A stretch of 26,290 nucleotides of DNA, from positions 1 to 26,290 of IMG/VR virus record IMGVR_UViG_3300007734_000526; one strand, 5' to 3'. A model generated the notes under the pieces. That model did no database searches and was not told where the DNA came from. It saw nothing but the letters and a program-made list of their open reading frames with translations. How positions within the stretch are numbered: the stretch's first letter is position 1; each line of letters starts with the position of its first letter. Source of the stretch: a virus. This document shows positions 2,186 through 19,153 of the stretch, piece after piece. The translations under genes were made by a program, and so were the position numbers.

Positions 2186-3913
2186 TTAGTTATTTACTGC
2201 AACAAGCATTGGCTTTCCGCTGTTAACTGGACGGGCACACATGCCAATTCCCCAAACCATTGTGCGCGCTAACTCAATCGGCCCTGGACTCCGTTTACTG
2301 CTCAAAACTATGGTGTTGTCCGTGCGTACCGCTACCGCGCGCTGTACGTGTTCCGCCAATAGTTTTTCTCCTGTGTGCAATAGGCGTGCTTCGGCAATCA
2401 TGTTTTTGGCAAGCGGTGTAAACCGTCCTAATTCCGCGTAGCCGACCACGACCCTGCGGCGCTCAATGTTTGGTGGGCAGGTTGCGTCCACGGTTGGCGA
2501 CAGAGCAAACCTGATCGTGGGGTCTTTGGCAAGTTCTTGCACGTTTTCCCACAGTTCGGTAATTGATTCGGCAATGAATGCCACGGTTACGAGCACACGG
2601 CCGTCTGACAGGTTGACGCATCTGGTTGCGCTATATCGGGAGTCGTCCAGCGATGACTCGATCGCGACTACGCCACCGCTTGGCACCTCACCTGTGTATT
2701 CCAAAGACGGCCAACGCCCAGGCTCAATCCAACCTCGGACAACACTCACCCACAAGTTGAGACTTGCGCGCAGGAACGATGCGCGATCGGGGTTTGTGGA
2801 TTCTTGCCTAATTGTGTCCATGTCCAACGTGTAGCCGAGCGCAGGATTACCCCACGCCCATGACGATGGATGCAACGGGTCAAGGCTCGGGTCAGGCGAC
2901 CATTCCGCCATATACATCGTTGACGGTTCGCCTTTGTCTATTGCTCGAATGCCCGCCTCACGCCAACGCTGAAACAGCACAGATTCCTCGGTGCCGGCGG
3001 TACTGAAGAAACACGCCAACGGGTTTTTGCGTGCGCGCTGTGCCGGCAACAAACCGCCTTCTACAGAGTCAGGGTTGACGTCAAACAGCTCGTCCACGAT
3101 CACGAGGTCAATGCTCATGCCGTGTCCTTGGTTTGGCTTTAACGCTTTGACCCACCATTTGCTGCCGTCTGGCATGGTGGCCTGATAACGGCCGTAGGAC
3201 TTGACGATCTTGGCGCCGTAATACTCCTCAAGGATTGGTGCCAAATCATCAAACAACAAACACGCAAGATCAAGTCTGTGCGCGCCAGATACAACGGTTT
3301 GTTTTTGTCCACGTATCTTTGGCATCTCCACAAGCCAAAACAGAATAAGCGCCTGAATGATCGTGGTCTTGCCGTTCTGCCGCGCGACTGACACAAGGCT
3401 CGAGCGATGCACAAACTTGCGATCGGCGTCAACCGCAAGCATTCCTTCAAGAGCATGTATTTGCCACGGCATCAAATCAATGTGAAGTATCTGTTTTGCC
3501 ATGTTCCCCACAAGTCCAGCGAGTGAGCCGGCATGGTCAGGGATGATCGTTTCCAGTCTCGGCCGGTCATGGCCAGTTGGCGCTGGTTCAGGCTGGTTTC
3601 GGCTGGTGGCGACAAATTCTTGGTTGGGGCTCGGGGTGATCGCGTTTGTGTGTAAAAAATCATTCAGGGCTTTGTCGCGTGTTTGTTTGGCTGCGGCGAG
3701 TTTGCGGTTGCGGAAGGCTGCGCCTCGTGCGCTGTTGCAGGGTTTGCAGCTTGGCACCATGCCGTCGGCGTGTGTGCCTCCGCGTTCTACTTCGACGAGG
3801 TGGTCGGCTTCGGTTGCGGGTCGGCGTCGGCACCAATGGCAGATTGGGCTGTCGGCAAGTAGGGCTTTGCGGGCGGCTTGGTAGGACGGGTCGGAGTATT
3901 CGCGCTTAGGCAT
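2186..3913 (-). CDS. terL: Large terminase with N-terminal HNH nuclease domain (unit C)
   Basis: 575 aa. Residues 20-65 form an HNH/zinc module: CHWC (25-28), Asp-His 37-38, CKPCN (56-60). After a linker comes the terminase motor: LMPWQ adenine-side segment near 147, Walker A VARQNGKT (176-183), Walker B LVIVDE (270-275) and the coupling motif FFSTAGTEE (302-310). The C-terminal RNase H-like nuclease begins around VVAIESSLDDSRYSA. The enzyme cuts concatemeric phage DNA and pumps it into the capsid. The frame stays open upstream to a TTG at 3973, but ATG 3913 has a GGGAG ribosome site 6 nt upstream and gives exactly the 575-aa length of the unit B copy. A separate HNH protein next to TerL is common; one chain is less so. 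No small terminase is recognisable. Confidence 0.93.
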   Translation of the reverse strand: MPKREYSDPSYQAARKALLADSPICHWCRRRPATEADHLVEVERGGTHADGMVPSCKPCNSARGAAFRNRKLAAAKQTRDKALNDFLHTNAITPSPNQEFVATSRNQPEPAPTGHDRPRLETIIPDHAGSLAGLVGNMAKQILHIDLMPWQIHALEGMLAVDADRKFVHRSSLVSVARQNGKTTIIQALILFWLVEMPKIRGQKQTVVSGAHRLDLACLLFDDLAPILEEYYGAKIVKSYGRYQATMPDGSKWWVKALKPNQGHGMSIDLVIVDELFDVNPDSVEGGLLPAQRARKNPLACFFSTAGTEESVLFQRWREAGIRAIDKGEPSTMYMAEWSPDPSLDPLHPSSWAWGNPALGYTLDMDTIRQESTNPDRASFLRASLNLWVSVVRGWIEPGRWPSLEYTGEVPSGGVVAIESSLDDSRYSATRCVNLSDGRVLVTVAFIAESITELWENVQELAKDPTIRFALSPTVDATCPPNIERRRVVVGYAELGRFTPLAKNMIAEARLLHTGEKLLAEHVQRAVAVRTDNTIVLSSKRSPGPIELARTMVWGIGMCARPVNSGKPMLVAVNN

Positions 3914-4016
3914 TGTTGCTCCCGCGCGCTTTGCGCTTGGGCTGGCGCGGCGACGTTGTCGCCTTGCCCTCAAGCTGCTGTCGGGCCGTTGTGTCGGGTT
4001 CAGGTTTGTTGCGCAT
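3906..4016 (-). CDS. Conserved basic micro-ORF before terminase (unit C, 36 aa)
   Basis: A 36-codon ORF starts at ATG 4016 and ends at a TAA that overlaps the first codons of the terminase. Its C-terminal part reads PRQPKRKARGS, matching PRQRKRSARA of the micro-ORF at the same place in unit B (17756-17842). In both units it lies between the structured RNA and TerL and overlaps the TerL start, so translational coupling is likely. The ribosome site is weaker here (AAGG about 12 nt upstream). The Arg/Lys-rich tail could bind nucleic acid. It is too short to be a usual small terminase. It may be only a leader peptide; function is unknown. Part of the similarity could come from conserved DNA upstream of TerL. 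Confidence 0.5.
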   Translation of the reverse strand: MRNKPEPDTTARQQLEGKATTSPRQPKRKARGSNNA

Positions 4017-4049: not shown

Positions 4050-4210
4050 CCTAGATGTGTAATGCCCACCCCCCGGCTTGCCTCTACCCGGGTCCCACTT
4101 GCATGTCTTGACCTCATCGCTTCGACGCCTTGCCCGTTCCCTTTCGTGTAGCAGTTCACGGGCGCGTCGATCTACCCCCGTTACCGGGTGTCATCCAACA
4201 GCCATGCGAC
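4050..4210 (-). ncRNA. Candidate structured RNA upstream of terminase (unit C)
   Basis: Read on the minus strand. P1 is CCCG-GTAA-CGGG (4188-4177), a GNRA tetraloop. A GGTAGA linker follows (4176-4171). P2 pairs TCGACGC (4170-4164) with GCGTCGA (4128-4122), stacked on GCCCGT/ACGGGC (4163-4158/4137-4132), with a 3-nt AAG bulge and a 20-nt loop holding ACACGAAA. P3 is ATGC/GCAT (4104-4101/4065-4062) enclosing P4 CCCGG/CCGGG (4092-4088/4076-4072) with GGCAA in its loop. The element starts with GTCGCATG and ends with ACACATCTA. The unit B copy at 17895-18066 has the same helices with different base pairs, as expected for a conserved RNA. Function unknown; position suggests packaging, or control of the terminase operon. 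Confidence 0.72.
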
Positions 4211-4231
4211 TGGCGTAGGTCTATGGGCGAT

Positions 4232-4405
4232 CTAGTCGCCGCGAGTTGTGAGCTCTATGGAATACCAGTAGGCCTTTGCCGTTTTACGGGCGGCCCAACG
4301 CAAATACTTTTCTAATTCGGGGCTGTATTCGTCTTGTGGCATGTCTTTGACCATGGCCAGCAACCGAAGCAGGTGTTCAAGTTGATCAAGCAGCGGGTGG
4401 CTCAT
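4232..4405 (-). CDS. Small helical protein after the annealing protein (unit B, 57 aa)
   Basis: ATG 4405 overlaps the stop of the annealing-protein gene as ATGA and the ORF runs 57 codons to TAG. The protein is predicted largely helical and charged, with a Leu-rich N-terminus (LLDQLEHLLRLL) and a central YLRWAARK segment. Unit A has a 48-aa ORF at exactly the same position and overlap (18441-18587) with CVRWAIKH at the matching place, so this is a real but fast-evolving small gene. No family is recognised. Its place next to the annealing protein hints at an accessory role in recombination, but that is inference. In unit B it is the last gene before the junction RNA; unit A has an extra nuclease gene here. 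Confidence 0.6.
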   Translation of the reverse strand: MSHPLLDQLEHLLRLLAMVKDMPQDEYSPELEKYLRWAARKTAKAYWYSIELTTRGD

Positions 4406-4971
4406 GACGCCATGCCCTTCAGGGTGTCGATGACTTTTTTGGCTTGAGCCAATGTCATGACCGATGGGAGTGTGCCAGTCAGCTCAATGACCTTGGCTTC
4501 GTAGGCTTGTTCATCCATGCCAGCCTTTTTGGCCAGCGACCAGGCAAACCCGGCTTGTTTCTCGGTGCGGATCTGTTGTCCGCCGATCGTTGTGATCTCG
4601 GTTTGAGCCGAGGACGGGGACGAAGCAAGGTTGGGCGCCCCCGCCCTCGACACTTTTGCCATCTCCTCGCGAGATGGTCTTTTACCGTGGGTCGCATAAC
4701 CACAGTTCGCTAACGCCCGGCCAATCGCAGACGTCTCGCAGTTCTCTACGAACGACGTACGGTTGACGGGGCTTGAGCCTTTGACTTCCTCGGCGTAACC
4801 AGTCGCGGTGGGTGCCGACTGGGTGGCGTCAAAGTAGATTTCGGCTCGGAATATGCAGCTGTCGCCGTCGTACGCCATCATGGTCGTCTCAATGCGACCG
4901 TTTGGATGGTCGCGCCAAAAGCGTGCCAAGCGATCCTCGACGGTTTCGTAGGCGGACAGATCAAATGCCAT
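4402..4971 (-). CDS. Putative single-strand annealing protein (ERF/Rad52-like) (unit B)
   Basis: 189 aa, the same length as its partner in unit A (18584-19153). The core (residues 1-110) holds YETVEDRLARFW, a strand-rich stretch with YDGDSCIFRAEIYF, ATGYAEE, and the signature ENCETSAIGRALANCGYATHGKRPSREEM (in part 77-103). This actinophage family is often placed with ERF/Rad52-type annealing proteins because the SAIGRALA helix resembles the conserved helix of ERF proteins. That link is remote. The variable C-terminal half ends in a helical segment. Such proteins coat and anneal single strands in phage recombination and concatemer formation. ATG 4971 has an AGAGG site 6 nt upstream and matches the partner start; the open frame extends 33 codons further without support. 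Confidence 0.6.
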   Translation of the reverse strand: MAFDLSAYETVEDRLARFWRDHPNGRIETTMMAYDGDSCIFRAEIYFDATQSAPTATGYAEEVKGSSPVNRTSFVENCETSAIGRALANCGYATHGKRPSREEMAKVSRAGAPNLASSPSSAQTEITTIGGQQIRTEKQAGFAWSLAKKAGMDEQAYEAKVIELTGTLPSVMTLAQAKKVIDTLKGMAS

Positions 4972-5155
4972 TGTCAACCTCTGCAAACATGGCGGTCGGT
5001 GCTTCTTGTGCATGCCATTGGTTGTGATCGCATGATGGGCAGTCGCCGTGTGGTTTGCCTCGACCATCAAGTGTGCAGATCACAGCCCCGCAGTAGGCGC
5101 ATGACCACAAGGTTTGTTTGCCGAACATGCTGGCCTGTGTGTGCTTGAACTTCAT
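4961..5155 (-). CDS. Small zinc-ribbon protein (unit B, 64 aa)
   Basis: 64 aa with two Cys pairs, CAYC and CPSC, about 20 residues apart, as in a zinc ribbon. Its ATG at 5155 overlaps the upstream stop (ATGA) and its own stop overlaps the annealing-protein start by 11 bp, so it sits inside a coupled operon and is very likely translated. The family is not recognised beyond the zinc ribbon. Unit A carries a different small Cys-rich ORF (19641-19829) in the same cassette but one gene further upstream, so the small zinc proteins have been shuffled or replaced. A role in binding DNA or a partner protein is plausible but not shown. Confidence 0.7.
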   Translation of the reverse strand: MKFKHTQASMFGKQTLWSCAYCGAVICTLDGRGKPHGDCPSCDHNQWHAQEAPTAMFAEVDNGI

Positions 5156-12583: not shown

Positions 12584-13209
12584 CAGGCCACCTGTGGGCG
12601 GTCAATACCGAGCAGCTGCTTGACCATCCCGGAGAGGCCGACGACGGGGGCTGTGGCCATGCCGTCAAATGATGCGTACTGGTCGATCGAGCCGCGCTGA
12701 CGGTACAGGGCGCCGCCGTACATGATCGTGCCAAGCTTGACGTCTTGGCTGGGCACCGTGGTCAGGCTGTCGATGTATCCGGCTTCGACGCGACGCCTGT
12801 AGCAGAAAGCGTTGGCGGCCGACGCGCAGATCGTCAGGAATGCGGCGTCGCCTGCGGTAGCGGTGCCAATCCCAATCCAGTCCTCAATGTCGGTGGCGGT
12901 GATCCAAGTGCAGGTTGGCGTGAATGACAAGGTGCCGGTGGCTGCGGTGCGCTCGACGTCGTCCGCCGTCTTGGCGTAAAGCACCTGATTTTGGATCGGT
13001 ACCTGGTAGTCGTACAGCAGGTCGCCTTCGCTGTCTACACCCAAATACAAGTATTGCGGGAGTGCGTAGACGGTGTAGGAGCCGTTGAACGTTGCGTCGA
13101 CGCCTGTTACGACGATGGCGCCGCCTACAGTCACCTCGGAGGGGGTGAGGAGCTGTAGGACGGCGTAGTCGTCGATTAGGTATTTGTGGGTGACCGTGTA
13201 GGTGGCCAT
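12583..13209 (-). CDS. Head-tail connector with N-terminal beta domain (unit B)
   Basis: 208 aa following the capsid gene. The C-terminal half (from about residue 105: TATDIEDWIGIGTATAGDAAFLTICASAANAFCYRRR) is the helical bundle of gp6-like head-tail adaptors that bind under the portal. The N-terminal 100 residues are beta-rich (VTVGGAIVVTGVDATFNGSYTVYALPQYLYLG) and look like a small immunoglobulin-type or virion-surface domain fused to the adaptor, which is not usual. The ribosome site is weak (AGG 13 nt upstream). In a genome this small, fusion of a decoration-like domain to a connector would save a gene, but this is inference. Confidence 0.68.
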   Translation of the reverse strand: MATYTVTHKYLIDDYAVLQLLTPSEVTVGGAIVVTGVDATFNGSYTVYALPQYLYLGVDSEGDLLYDYQVPIQNQVLYAKTADDVERTAATGTLSFTPTCTWITATDIEDWIGIGTATAGDAAFLTICASAANAFCYRRRVEAGYIDSLTTVPSQDVKLGTIMYGGALYRQRGSIDQYASFDGMATAPVVGLSGMVKQLLGIDRPQVA

Positions 13210-16031: not shown

Positions 16032-17759
16032 TTACACGGTGACGATCATGGGGCGCCCTGTTTGTGCGGGTCGGGCGACCATACCGGCGGCCCATACCAT
16101 GCAGCGGGCCAACTCGATCGGGCCAGGCGATCGTTGCGACGAGAGCACCAAAGTGTTTTGGGTTTTGACGGCAACGGCACGTTGCACATGTTCAGCCAAC
16201 ATCGTTTCGCCCGTGTGCAGCAAGCGGCCTTGATTAATCAGGTCGCGCACAACGGGGGTGAGTTTGCCAAGTTCAGCGTAGCCGACGACTACGCGGCGAC
16301 GCTCTAAATTCGGTGGGCATAAAGCGTCAATCGTTGGGGACATGGCGAAGCGCACAGCGGAATCAGCGGCTGCGTCAGCTAGCCGGTCGTACAGTTCGCC
16401 GATCGTGTCAACGACGAAGGCGATGGTGGTAACGGTGCGACCGTCGGGCAGGTTGACGGCCCGCACAGCTGCATACCGAGACTCGTCAAGGCTGGCTTCA
16501 ACGGCGATAATGCCACCCATTGGAATCGGGCCTTTGTGTTCCAGTTCGGGCCAGCGGCCGGGTGCGATCCACCCTCGAGCCACCGTCACCCACAGGTTTA
16601 GCGATGCTCGCAGGAACGATGCCCGATCGGGGTTTTCGCTTTCCTGTCGCAGGGTGTCAATCGTCAACGTGTGACCGATGGCGGGATTGCCCCAATACCA
16701 GGCGGCTTCGTTGAGCGTATCGATGTGTGGGGGCGGTGACCATTCGGCCATGTAGTTGACGGTGGGTTTGCCGGTGTCAATTGCGCGTAGGCCGTGTTCA
16801 CGCCAGCGTTGGAACAGGGTGCTGGCCTCGGTGCCGGCCGTGGACATGAATAGGGCGAACGGGTTTTTGCGAGCACGTTGCGCTGGCATGAGGCCGCCCT
16901 CAACGACCTCGGCATCAACGTCAAACAGCTCGTCAACGATCAGCAGGTCAATTGACATACCGTGGCCGGCGTTGTGCTTGGCGGCTTTGATCCACCATTT
17001 TGTGCCGTCAGGCATGGTCACCGTGTTGCGACCATACGACCTGGAGACGGTCGCCCCGTACTTGTTCTCTAGGATGTCGGCCAGGTCGTCAAACACCATG
17101 ACTGCCAAATCAAGGCGGTGCGCCACGCTGACGATCGTTTGACGTTCACCACGGATCTTCGGCATCTCCAACAGCCAAAACAAAATCACCGATTTGAGAA
17201 TGATCGACTTGCCGTTCTGACGGGCCACCGACCCCAACGCCGAGCGATGCACCAACATGTCGTTGCCATCAAACGTCAACGCCCGGTCAAGAAAGTGCAC
17301 CTGCCACGGCATCAGCTCAATGCCAAGGGCGTCTAGGCATATGTCCCCCACAAGCGGCCCAAACGAACCGACCCCATCCGGGCTGATCGTTTCCAGTCGA
17401 GGCCGGTCATGGCTAGTCACCGCCAGTTCAGGCTGATCCCGGCCAGTTCGGGGATATTCGAGATTGGGGCTCGGGGTCAGTTGGGTGTCGTATAAAAAAT
17501 TGTTTATTGCTTTTTCTCTGTTTTGTTTTGCGTTTGCGAGTTTTTTGTTTTTGTATGTTGCTCCGCGTGCGCTGTTGCATGGTTTGCAACTGGCGACGTA
17601 TCCGTCTTCGAGTGTGCCGCCTTTGTCTGATTCGATTAGGTGGTCTAGTTCTGTTGCTGTGTTGCGTTTGCACCAATGGCATAGGGGTTGGTCGCGCAGT
17701 AGTTCGGCGCGTGCTTGTTTGTAGATTGCGGTGTCGTGTTCGGTTTGTTTGCGTGTCAT
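16032..17759 (-). CDS. terL: Large terminase with N-terminal HNH nuclease domain (unit B)
   Basis: 575 aa from ATG 17759, which overlaps the micro-ORF stop as ATGA. HNH/zinc module: CHWC (27-30), Asp-His 39-40, CKPCN (58-62). Motor: LMPWQ near 149, Walker A SVARQNGKS (177-185), Walker B LLIVDE (272-277), MSTAGTEAS coupling motif. The nuclease domain starts at IIAVEASLDESRYAA; the first acidic position is Glu where many TerL have Asp, and the same is true in unit C. The frame extends upstream to 17930, but this would run through the structured RNA and lose the equal length of the two copies. It packages phage DNA; the HNH part may help make or activate the cut, as known for separate HNH proteins of HK97-like phages. 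Confidence 0.94.
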   Translation of the reverse strand: MTRKQTEHDTAIYKQARAELLRDQPLCHWCKRNTATELDHLIESDKGGTLEDGYVASCKPCNSARGATYKNKKLANAKQNREKAINNFLYDTQLTPSPNLEYPRTGRDQPELAVTSHDRPRLETISPDGVGSFGPLVGDICLDALGIELMPWQVHFLDRALTFDGNDMLVHRSALGSVARQNGKSIILKSVILFWLLEMPKIRGERQTIVSVAHRLDLAVMVFDDLADILENKYGATVSRSYGRNTVTMPDGTKWWIKAAKHNAGHGMSIDLLIVDELFDVDAEVVEGGLMPAQRARKNPFALFMSTAGTEASTLFQRWREHGLRAIDTGKPTVNYMAEWSPPPHIDTLNEAAWYWGNPAIGHTLTIDTLRQESENPDRASFLRASLNLWVTVARGWIAPGRWPELEHKGPIPMGGIIAVEASLDESRYAAVRAVNLPDGRTVTTIAFVVDTIGELYDRLADAAADSAVRFAMSPTIDALCPPNLERRRVVVGYAELGKLTPVVRDLINQGRLLHTGETMLAEHVQRAVAVKTQNTLVLSSQRSPGPIELARCMVWAAGMVARPAQTGRPMIVTV

Positions 17760-17842
17760 GCTCGCGCGCTTCGCTTGCGCTGACGCGGCGCTTGCGCGCC
17801 TTGTCCACGGTTTTGGTTGGTTGTGCCGGCTGTCGGGTTCAT
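17756..17842 (-). CDS. Conserved basic micro-ORF before terminase (unit B, 28 aa)
   Basis: 28 codons from ATG 17842, with AAAAGGA about nine bases upstream, to a TGA overlapping the terminase ATG (ATGA). The sequence is polar with a strongly basic end, PRQRKRSARA, matching PRQPKRKARGS in unit C (3906-4016). It is the best ribosome site in this junction; the terminase itself has none of note, which suggests that the micro-ORF is translated to deliver ribosomes to TerL. The peptide could also be functional, for example a basic nucleic-acid-binding tag acting with the terminase. It is not a recognisable small terminase. Confidence 0.58.
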   Translation of the reverse strand: MNPTAGTTNQNRGQGAQAPRQRKRSARA

Positions 17843-17894
17843 GTTTGTGTGTCCTTTTGTTTGTCAACTGTATGTTAAACGAACTGCGAAACAT

Positions 17895-18066
17895 TAGATG
17901 TGTGAATGCTCCACCCTCTGGATTGCCCATCCCAGATCCCTATTGCATTACTTCATCAGTCTGTTTACTGATCGCCCGATCGCAGTGCCCGTCTCATTTC
18001 GTGTTGCATGATTCGAGGCGCGACCGTCTACCCAGGTTCCCCTGTTTACCGCCCACCTCATGCGAC
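17895..18066 (-). ncRNA. Candidate structured RNA upstream of terminase (unit A/B junction)
   Basis: Minus strand. GTCGCATG (18066-18059), 14 nt, P1 CAGG-GGAA-CCTG (18044-18033; GNRA loop), GGTAGA (18032-18027), P2 CGGTCGC/GCGATCG (18026-18020/17983-17977) stacked on GCCT/GGGC (18019-18016/17990-17987) with a 3-nt ACT bulge and ACACGAAA in the loop. An extra hairpin ATCAGT/ACTGAT (17972-17967/17960-17955) is absent in unit C. P3 AATGC/GCATT (17949-17945/17909-17905) encloses P4 TCTGG/CCAGA (17936-17932/17921-17917) with GGCAA in the loop. The end is ACACATCTA. Spacings match unit C: 14 nt before P1, 6 nt P1-P2, 8 nt P3-P4. Seven pairs are replaced by other Watson-Crick pairs between copies. 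No coding frame is conserved here. Confidence 0.75.
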
Positions 18067-18096
18067 CGAGGCACACGCTTGCTACTAGCCGATTGT

Positions 18097-18441
18097 TTAC
18101 AGTCTGGGATTACTCAACGTGTAAAGGATGTATTCCATGTCGCTGGGCTTCCACACCGCAGCATGACAGCCTGCCATTTCACACGCGTTTAACCAAATCT
18201 TTTGCCCAGGTGTTGTCTTACCCTTCTCAGCCTTCAACTCAATGACCAACGGACGGCCACCTTGGAACGGATGCACCATGAACAGATCAGGGAAACCAGC
18301 ATCACCTTGCACGTTCGTTAACCAACGCCCTCGAGTGTTCTGCGCCGGCAGATCATGATGAACTAACCAGCCGTACCGTTTAGCAATGCTGATAACCATG
18401 TCTTTAAAGTCGGCTTCGCTCATCTTTGCGTCAATTTTCAT
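18097..18441 (-). CDS. VRR-NUC domain nuclease (unit A)
   Basis: 114 aa, a whole VRR-NUC (PD-(D/E)xK superfamily) domain: N-terminal helix SEADFKDMVISIAKRYGW, then GFPDLFMV (Asp 52), VIELKAEKG (Glu 68, Lys 70) and PGQKIWL (Gln 80), followed by WKPSD. Stand-alone phage VRR-NUC proteins are structure-specific nucleases, often proposed to resolve branched DNA or to replace RuvC-type resolvases. It starts at ATG 18441 on the stop of the 48-aa ORF (TAATG) and is the last gene before the junction RNA. Unit B has no counterpart between its annealing protein and RNA, so this gene is optional in the group. Confidence 0.88.
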   Translation of the reverse strand: MKIDAKMSEADFKDMVISIAKRYGWLVHHDLPAQNTRGRWLTNVQGDAGFPDLFMVHPFQGGRPLVIELKAEKGKTTPGQKIWLNACEMAGCHAAVWKPSDMEYILYTLSNPRL

Positions 18442-18587
18442 TAAAGCGACGCCATATAAGTTTTGTCAGCAAGGTGTTTGATCGCCCAGCGAACGCATTG
18501 TTTTGCTTCGCGCTGGTCATCCTCGTTCATGCGGTCATAAATGCTTTGCAAACGTTCAATCGCGCTAATCAGTTCATCCAATGTCAT
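18441..18587 (-). CDS. Small helical protein after the annealing protein (unit A, 48 aa)
   Basis: 48 codons between ATG 18587 (ATGA overlap with the annealing-protein stop) and TAA 18443-18441 (TAATG overlap with the VRR-NUC start). Predicted as two amphipathic helices, DELISAIERLQSIYDRM and REAKQCVRWAIKHLADK. The position and the RWA core agree with the 57-aa ORF of unit B (4232-4405). The double overlap means that it is read in a coupled series from annealing protein to nuclease. No family is recognised; partner or regulator of the recombination proteins is only a guess. Confidence 0.65.
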   Translation of the reverse strand: MTLDELISAIERLQSIYDRMNEDDQREAKQCVRWAIKHLADKTYMASL

Positions 18588-19153
18588 TTCAGCCTCTCAA
18601 TAATCTTGCTTGCTTCATGTGATTTCAAAAGTTCTAGCACCGCGGTGTCATCCTCTAACTGGAACTGGATCATTTCAAGCAGCGCCAGATCGTCCATTCC
18701 CTTGTCGCGTGCCAGTTTTTTGATGTAACCAATTTGCTTAGGTGTAGCAAACGCCCCTCGAGGCGTGTGTTCCAAAGCCCCGGACGGAGTTGGAGACGCG
18801 TGACCTGCGTTGGGTTGCTCCGCCCGGGACACCTTGGACATTTCTTCACGACTAGGCCGTTTGCCATGGGTCGCATATCCACAATTGGCTAACGCGCGGC
18901 CAATCGCGCTTGTTTCACAGTTTTCCACAAATGACGTGGAGTTGACGCCACGATCCGATCGGATTTCGTGCGCATAACCTGTAGCGGTTGGGACGGTTTC
19001 GCTGTTTTTAAAATAGATTTCGGCACGGAATACGCAACTGTCACCGTCGTAACTCATCATCGTGGTCTCTACTCGAGCGCCTGGGCCATGTTCAGCCCAA
19101 AAGCGCACAAGACGATCCTCAACGGTCTCATAGTTGCTTAGGTCAAAGCCCAT
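18584..19153 (-). CDS. Putative single-strand annealing protein (ERF/Rad52-like) (unit A)
   Basis: 189 aa, ATG 19153 overlapping the upstream stop (TGATG). The first 110 residues match the unit B copy closely: YETVEDRLVRFW, YDGDSCVFRAEIYF, ATGYAHE, ENCETSAIGRALANCGYATH, GKRPSREEMSKVSRA. The middle is a Pro/Ser linker and the C-terminal 60 residues (ATPKQIGYIKKLARDKGMDD) look like the helical tail seen in other phage recombination proteins. The ERF/Rad52 label is tentative, as for the unit B copy. It lies with a winged-helix gene and a VRR-NUC gene, which makes a recombination cassette plausible: annealing plus junction cleavage. Confidence 0.62.
   Translation of the reverse strand: MGFDLSNYETVEDRLVRFWAEHGPGARVETTMMSYDGDSCVFRAEIYFKNSETVPTATGYAHEIRSDRGVNSTSFVENCETSAIGRALANCGYATHGKRPSREEMSKVSRAEQPNAGHASPTPSGALEHTPRGAFATPKQIGYIKKLARDKGMDDLALLEMIQFQLEDDTAVLELLKSHEASKIIERLK

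Follow-up and report, generated by a model that had tools for sequence, protein, structure and literature searches.

The stretch of DNA analysed here (the window) is a virus contig of 26,290 bases in which all clear phage genes lie on the minus strand, in the order tail genes, lysis genes, VRR-NUC nuclease, a structured RNA, HNH-TerL, portal, and capsid protease. The VRR-NUC gene (18097..18441 (-), Pfam PF08774) ends about 19 nt before the RNA. An HNH-TerL frame with PHROG terminase and HNH matches is found at 16032..17930 (-); judged by homology, it likely starts at the ATG near 17758. A second HNH-TerL frame, 63% identical to this copy, occupies 2186..3973 (-). Within the 16032..17930 frame lies cosN (17465..17475 (-)), recognised from contig ends and with an 11-nt 3' overhang, CCCGAGCCCCA, and a second cosN was placed at 3625..3635 (-) from its identical sequence and its position in the frame. 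Dozens of independent contigs begin directly after CCCGAGCCCCA, and most right ends that reach there stop directly before it. The phages of the HNH-TerL clade are linear genomes of ~13.6-14.8 kb with an 11-nt 3' cos overhang. Because the cos cut falls inside the HNH-TerL frame, the linear genome has HNH at its right end and TerL at its left end, and end-joining at cos restores the fused gene in frame. The RNA is present in these linear genomes as a single copy, ~400 bp from the right (cos) end.

The GC content of the window is 0.53 left of the cos sites, 0.59 between them, and 0.50 to the right. Contig L004 matches the middle genome (X) at both ends (86%), and contigs L280 and L312 match the flanking genome (Y) at both ends (90/81% and 85/81%). 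Together, GC content and end matches indicate that the contig has the structure Y|X|Y, i.e., two different ~14 kb phages joined at cos, either in vivo or during library preparation or assembly. The frame at 16032..17930 thus combines the HNH of Y with the TerL of X, and the frame at 2186..3973 the HNH of X with the TerL of Y. An earlier note on this DNA, made from the sequence alone, had taken the two RNA-bearing junctions as repeats of one genome; instead, the two RNA copies are homologues belonging to two phages, not one duplicated junction. Contigs L056 (27.7 kb) and L062 (30.5 kb) also contain two RNA copies each and may be similar joins.

The whole element of phage Y spans 17896..18078 (-) (covariance-model match over model positions 1-182; 147.8 bits, E 4e-46 in 790 kb), and the copy of phage X spans 4053..4222 (-) (107.8 bits, E 6e-33). 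These E-values are rough owing to a shortened calibration, an uncertainty that strong matches exceed by far; matches scoring less than about 25 bits count as candidates. Across the family, the RNA measures ~100-190 nt and is built, from 5' to 3', of P0, P1 (a 4-bp hairpin with a GNAA loop), a GGGUAGA strand, P2, an optional P3, and P4. In copy Y, P0 (18055..18071 (-)) is a CCTC/GAGG hairpin with a conserved U-N-G-C-A loop and two-sided pair changes in alignment A9. It is followed by P1 (CAGG-GGAA-CCTG, a GNRA tetraloop hairpin at 18033..18044 (-)), in which 100% of cells are paired and double changes occur in 4/4 pairs, and by the GGTAGA linker (18027..18032 (-)), the columns of which are invariant or near-invariant. 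P2, its bulge, and the inner helices P2b/P2c cover 17977..18026 (-) (99.3% and 93.6% of cells paired); in shorter members of the family, a second GNRA loop takes the place of the inner helix with its AAA-type bulge. The P3 hairpin (ATCAG/CTGAT with a TAAACA loop, 17955..17972 (-); 98.6% of cells paired, double changes in 4/4 pairs) is absent from copy X and from some relatives. P4 (17905..17949 (-)) consists of an outer helix AATGC/GCATT and an inner helix TCTGG/CCAGA, with double changes in 11/11 pairs and a conserved GGGCAA loop, the loop type being GGGCAA/GAGGCA across the family.

P1, the linker, P2 with its 3-nt bulge, and P4 were found at the minus-strand places at which the earlier note had drawn them in both copies, and the compensatory changes that it had described between Y and X are real: CAGG-GGAA-CCTG versus CCCG-GTAA-CGGG in P1, CGGTCGC/GCGATCG versus TCGACGC/GCGTCGA in P2, and TCTGG/CCAGA versus CCCGG/CCGGG in P4. 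The extent given there was too small, since P0 and, in copy Y, P3 belong to the element as well. With respect to loop-loop contacts, the covariation screen returned nested helices and one non-helix pair; loops that do not vary cannot be judged by covariation. Kissing (loop-loop) pairing through P0 was considered; some lineages, though not most, have a palindrome (UGCA) as loop sequence. In alignments A3/A9, the 5' (P0-P1) and 3' (P2-P4) halves are swapped between lineages at the invariant GGGUAGA, as if cassettes had recombined.

Folding energies of the single sequences were not significant (z = -0.99 and -1.47 for the two copies), so the case for the fold rests on comparison. Related viral contigs were fetched with the HNH-TerL pair, 80 out of 484 relatives being kept and divergent sets added later. 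A sequence profile placed the element upstream of HNH-TerL in almost all loci that reach far enough, and an alignment of 48 homologues by sequence only already contained many double changes. The covariance model (R1; 182 positions, 40 pairs) gave 98 matches in 100 sources (the first 790 kb), each upstream of HNH-TerL and essentially one per phage genome. In the resulting 98-row alignment, 95.7% of base-pair cells pair, versus 70.4% in shuffled and 26-40% in slid alignments, and 39/40 pairs have changed on both sides, with 721 compensatory cells. Since kinship among sequences can mislead counts of double changes, a tree-based null was used in which substitutions are re-dealt along a FastTree tree, our simplified version of the R-scape idea. 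The significantly covarying column pairs were proposed pairs in 16/17 cases for the covariance-model alignment, and in 4/5 for a MAFFT-only alignment made without structure. On the minus strand, G.U cells number 186 and A.C cells 16 when two misaligned outer pairs are excluded (193 versus 64 when both are included), and an excess of G.U over A.C on one strand points to a structured RNA on that strand rather than a DNA cruciform. By comparative sequence analysis, the fold is real and the RNA lies on the minus strand, as had been proposed from the two copies.

In the HNH-TerL clade, the RNA begins a few nucleotides past the stop codon of the preceding gene, the identity of which varies, and consensus scans, which are uninformative in this clade, recognised no promoter or terminator of its own. 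In several genomes, a further gene separates the RNA from HNH-TerL and encodes either a second HNH-type endonuclease or a probable DNA methyltransferase (L055, L058, L064, L195, and L196; L050 and L059). Genomes of the L055 type have an altered cos sequence (CCCGATACCCA-like). At L115:2600-2850, in a member of the clade without a model match, the same place is taken by another sequence, which appears to be structured and resembles the RNA at its 3' end; it is possibly a replaced or very diverged RNA. The arrangement differs in relatives of 18 kb, two of which (L276 and L299) were found by scanning viral contigs for a 14-mer of the RNA core. In these two, the RNA lies on the strand opposite to every flanking gene. 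TerS-like ORF, TerL, and HNH are separate in the 18 kb relatives, and the RNA is located about 3 kb away. Eight aligned copies of this group have in common the sequence TTGCNN...TGCTAYTAT, which immediately precedes the RNA, and a long U-tract, which immediately follows it. From this conservation, the RNA of the 18 kb group would have a putative extended -10 promoter, TGCTAYTAT, which a strict consensus scan did not call, and a terminating U-tract. The RNA of L534, a phrog_38 copy, likewise has its 3' end in a U-rich tract. The covariance model had no match in 80 bacterial loci that share a 14-mer.

To view the terminase linkage in loci collected independently of the terminase, contigs were fetched by RNA sequence only, with two 18-19-base versions of P1-GGGUAGA, which yielded 121 model matches. 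Weak matches in this set are partly circular because the pattern belongs to the model; P0, which lies outside the search pattern, has its loop kept in 92/120 of these loci, distant relatives included, versus 5% in shuffles. A recognisable TerL was present in the stored stretch of 100/121 loci, and in about 98 of these 100 the RNA lies near the terminase. The linkage is therefore wider than first claimed, and it extends over several TerL families: 74 HNH-TerL (phrog_9), 23 phrog_38, 2 phrog_979, and 1 of the 18 kb type. With distances counted across cos where needed, the RNA and HNH-TerL share a strand in 73/74 HNH-TerL phages, with the RNA ~0.1-0.6 kb upstream, nearly always at 0.1-0.3 kb; the one exception, L539, is an aberrant contig. 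At phrog_38 (23/23) and phrog_979 (2/2) TerL loci, on contigs of up to 46 kb, RNA and terminase are on opposite strands; the RNA is mostly 0.1-3.3 kb upstream, with outliers at 5.4 kb (L694) and, for a second copy, 12 kb (L543). L543 carries two different family RNAs (2302-2477 and 13004-13134), one near TerL and the other about 12 kb off.

Searches of databases gave no named relative of the RNA. Rfam contained no gathering-level match, and no relevant weak match, for the window or 12 related loci, in agreement with the earlier note, which knew of no family of this shape. BLASTN of the RNA against phage records yielded nothing useful, no relative of HNH-TerL was found in genome contigs, and no description of the RNA was found in the searchable literature, which leaves out most subscription journals. 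The RNA was absent from the seven sequenced isolates tested, namely, six small actinophages with a comparably remote TerL (RRH1, EricDab, GMA5, Decurro, McGonagall, and Penoan) and Streptomyces phage WRightOn (first 3.5 kb only). A 13.5-bit partial match in McGonagall was rejected as merely a P4-like hairpin. A phrog_11717 protein (window 18584-19153 and 4402-5070), which we read as ERF-like, is encoded in both RNA-bearing groups compared and in 0/6 of the RNA-less small isolates, which makes it a candidate partner of the RNA or a lineage marker. Lysis and tail genes are also common to the RNA-bearing groups and missing from the RNA-less small isolates. The carriers of the RNA are probably tailed phages of Actinobacteria.

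Several known phage RNAs invite comparison. The pRNA of phi29, about 174 nt long, is to our knowledge the sole RNA that forms part of a phage DNA-packaging motor. The RNA described here resembles it in being a small folded phage RNA with one gene per small (~14-19 kb) tailed-phage genome, in its probable action in trans, and, in the HNH-TerL clade, in lying near a genome end. It differs in host and fold, and in that no covarying loop-loop contacts were found; moreover, phi29 is protein-primed and uses a gp16-type ATPase, whereas the packaging enzymes here are TerL proteins of phrog_9, phrog_38, and phrog_979 and the ends are cos ends. Membership in the phi29 pRNA family was rejected on the lack of an Rfam match, the TerL-type motors, and the cos ends. 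Other phage-linked RNAs are GOLLD and ROOL. One report (PMC12286853) describes these as structured RNAs of unknown function that were first seen in environmental DNA. They are much larger (several hundred nt) and form homo-oligomeric complexes, and the present element, at ~100-190 nt and without an Rfam match, does not belong with them. The lambda pR' (6S) leader RNA and the HK022 put RNAs are cis-acting phage RNAs at operon starts. The RNA of the HNH-TerL clade is similar to these in its position at the start of the late genes, and unlike them the family includes several phage types in which the RNA is encoded on the opposite strand. Membership in a cis leader, riboswitch, or put-type class was rejected because a place directly upstream on the same strand is confined to the HNH-TerL clade and is not shared by the 18 kb, phrog_38, and phrog_979 types, and because genes can intervene.

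The tentatively preferred explanation is that these are structured, free-standing phage RNAs of a new family, which accompany the terminase region and have a packaging role in trans. Its parts differ in strength. Action in trans is very probable: TerL family and RNA strand change, yet the RNA keeps close to the terminase, a pattern more easily explained by a product of the terminase module that acts in trans than by a cis element. A role in packaging or in a terminase step is possible, and is favoured because the position relative to the terminase is the one constant. The RNA would be transcribed from the minus strand within a one-directional phage operon in the window, and in relatives from its own promoter to the U-tract. 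It would then fold into a compact shape of P0, the GNRA hairpin P1, the GGGUAGA strand, P2, and P4, bind part of the machinery for DNA packaging or cos cleavage, or else another late protein, and thereby contribute to packaging in trans. Several findings count against a packaging role. The 18 kb phages have their own TerS-like ORF, TerL, and HNH, with the RNA at a distance of ~3 kb, small isolates with a comparably remote TerL lack it, and it co-occurs with the ERF-like and tail genes as well. Furthermore, a motor-specific RNA would have to fit all of the at least three TerL families with which it occurs. Proximity itself may reflect only that there is room before the terminase, where these compact phages keep free space.

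The main rival is another trans-acting RNA, one with control over the infected cell or over the early-to-late switch through protein binding or message base-pairing. This is a quite possible alternative, with a host or phage protein (a polymerase, a nuclease, or a defence factor) as target and the place near the terminase as a boundary with free space. It agrees with the stand-alone antisense RNA gene in relatives and with the unrelated TerL families, and the ERF-like, lysis, and tail genes shared by RNA-bearing groups and missing from RNA-less small phages would fit such a host- or replication-related role. However, it gives no reason why the RNA should be only a few kb from the terminase in about 98/100 loci, and in the 13 records searched, sites complementary to the exposed GGGUAGA strand were few and inconsistent beyond the RNA gene itself. 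From the HNH-TerL clade alone, a cis-acting leader of the HNH-TerL/late operon, which works by translational control or put-like processive antitermination, would be reasonable, as the RNA there is on the same strand, 0.1-0.2 kb upstream, and a few nucleotides past the preceding stop, with no promoter or terminator of its own seen. Yet a co-transcribed RNA could still be processed into a free one. A leader controlling the terminase operon, one of the functions first suggested, is contradicted as a general role by the opposite strand of the RNA in three other phage types and by the genes inserted between the RNA and HNH-TerL, and we consider this reading improbable.

Two further readings can be given much less weight. 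A self-cleaving or splicing element would agree with the compact multi-helix fold and the conserved loops, but Rfam gave neither a ribozyme nor an intron match and the genes around the RNA are not interrupted, which makes it very unlikely. Least likely of all is a DNA-level packaging or replication site (cosB, pac, or a cruciform), although its position in the HNH-TerL clade, ~400 bp away from the cos end, would suit it: the G.U excess is found on one strand only, conserved GNRA loops occur on that same strand, the 18 kb relatives have a putative promoter and U-tract, and the distance to cos varies.

If the packaging reading holds, ordinary terminases can use an RNA. That the family constitutes a second, independent class of viral packaging RNA, unrelated to phi29 pRNA and acting in trans with cos TerL motors of several families, is possible, though less likely than not. 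Alternatively, a common environmental phage group would depend on a new regulatory RNA that is kept at the terminase. In either case, an RNA absent from Rfam is strongly conserved beside terminases of at least three families; it occurs in both orientations in uncultured phages that range from 14 to about 46 kb, and further members can be sought with the covariance model. As a minor observation, a short ORF (ending in RGQGA-APRQ..RSARA) lies between the RNA and HNH at 17760-17860 (-) in the window and likewise in homologues. It overlaps the HNH start and is rich in GC hairpins, and in L064 and L195 it forms the start of an inserted gene.
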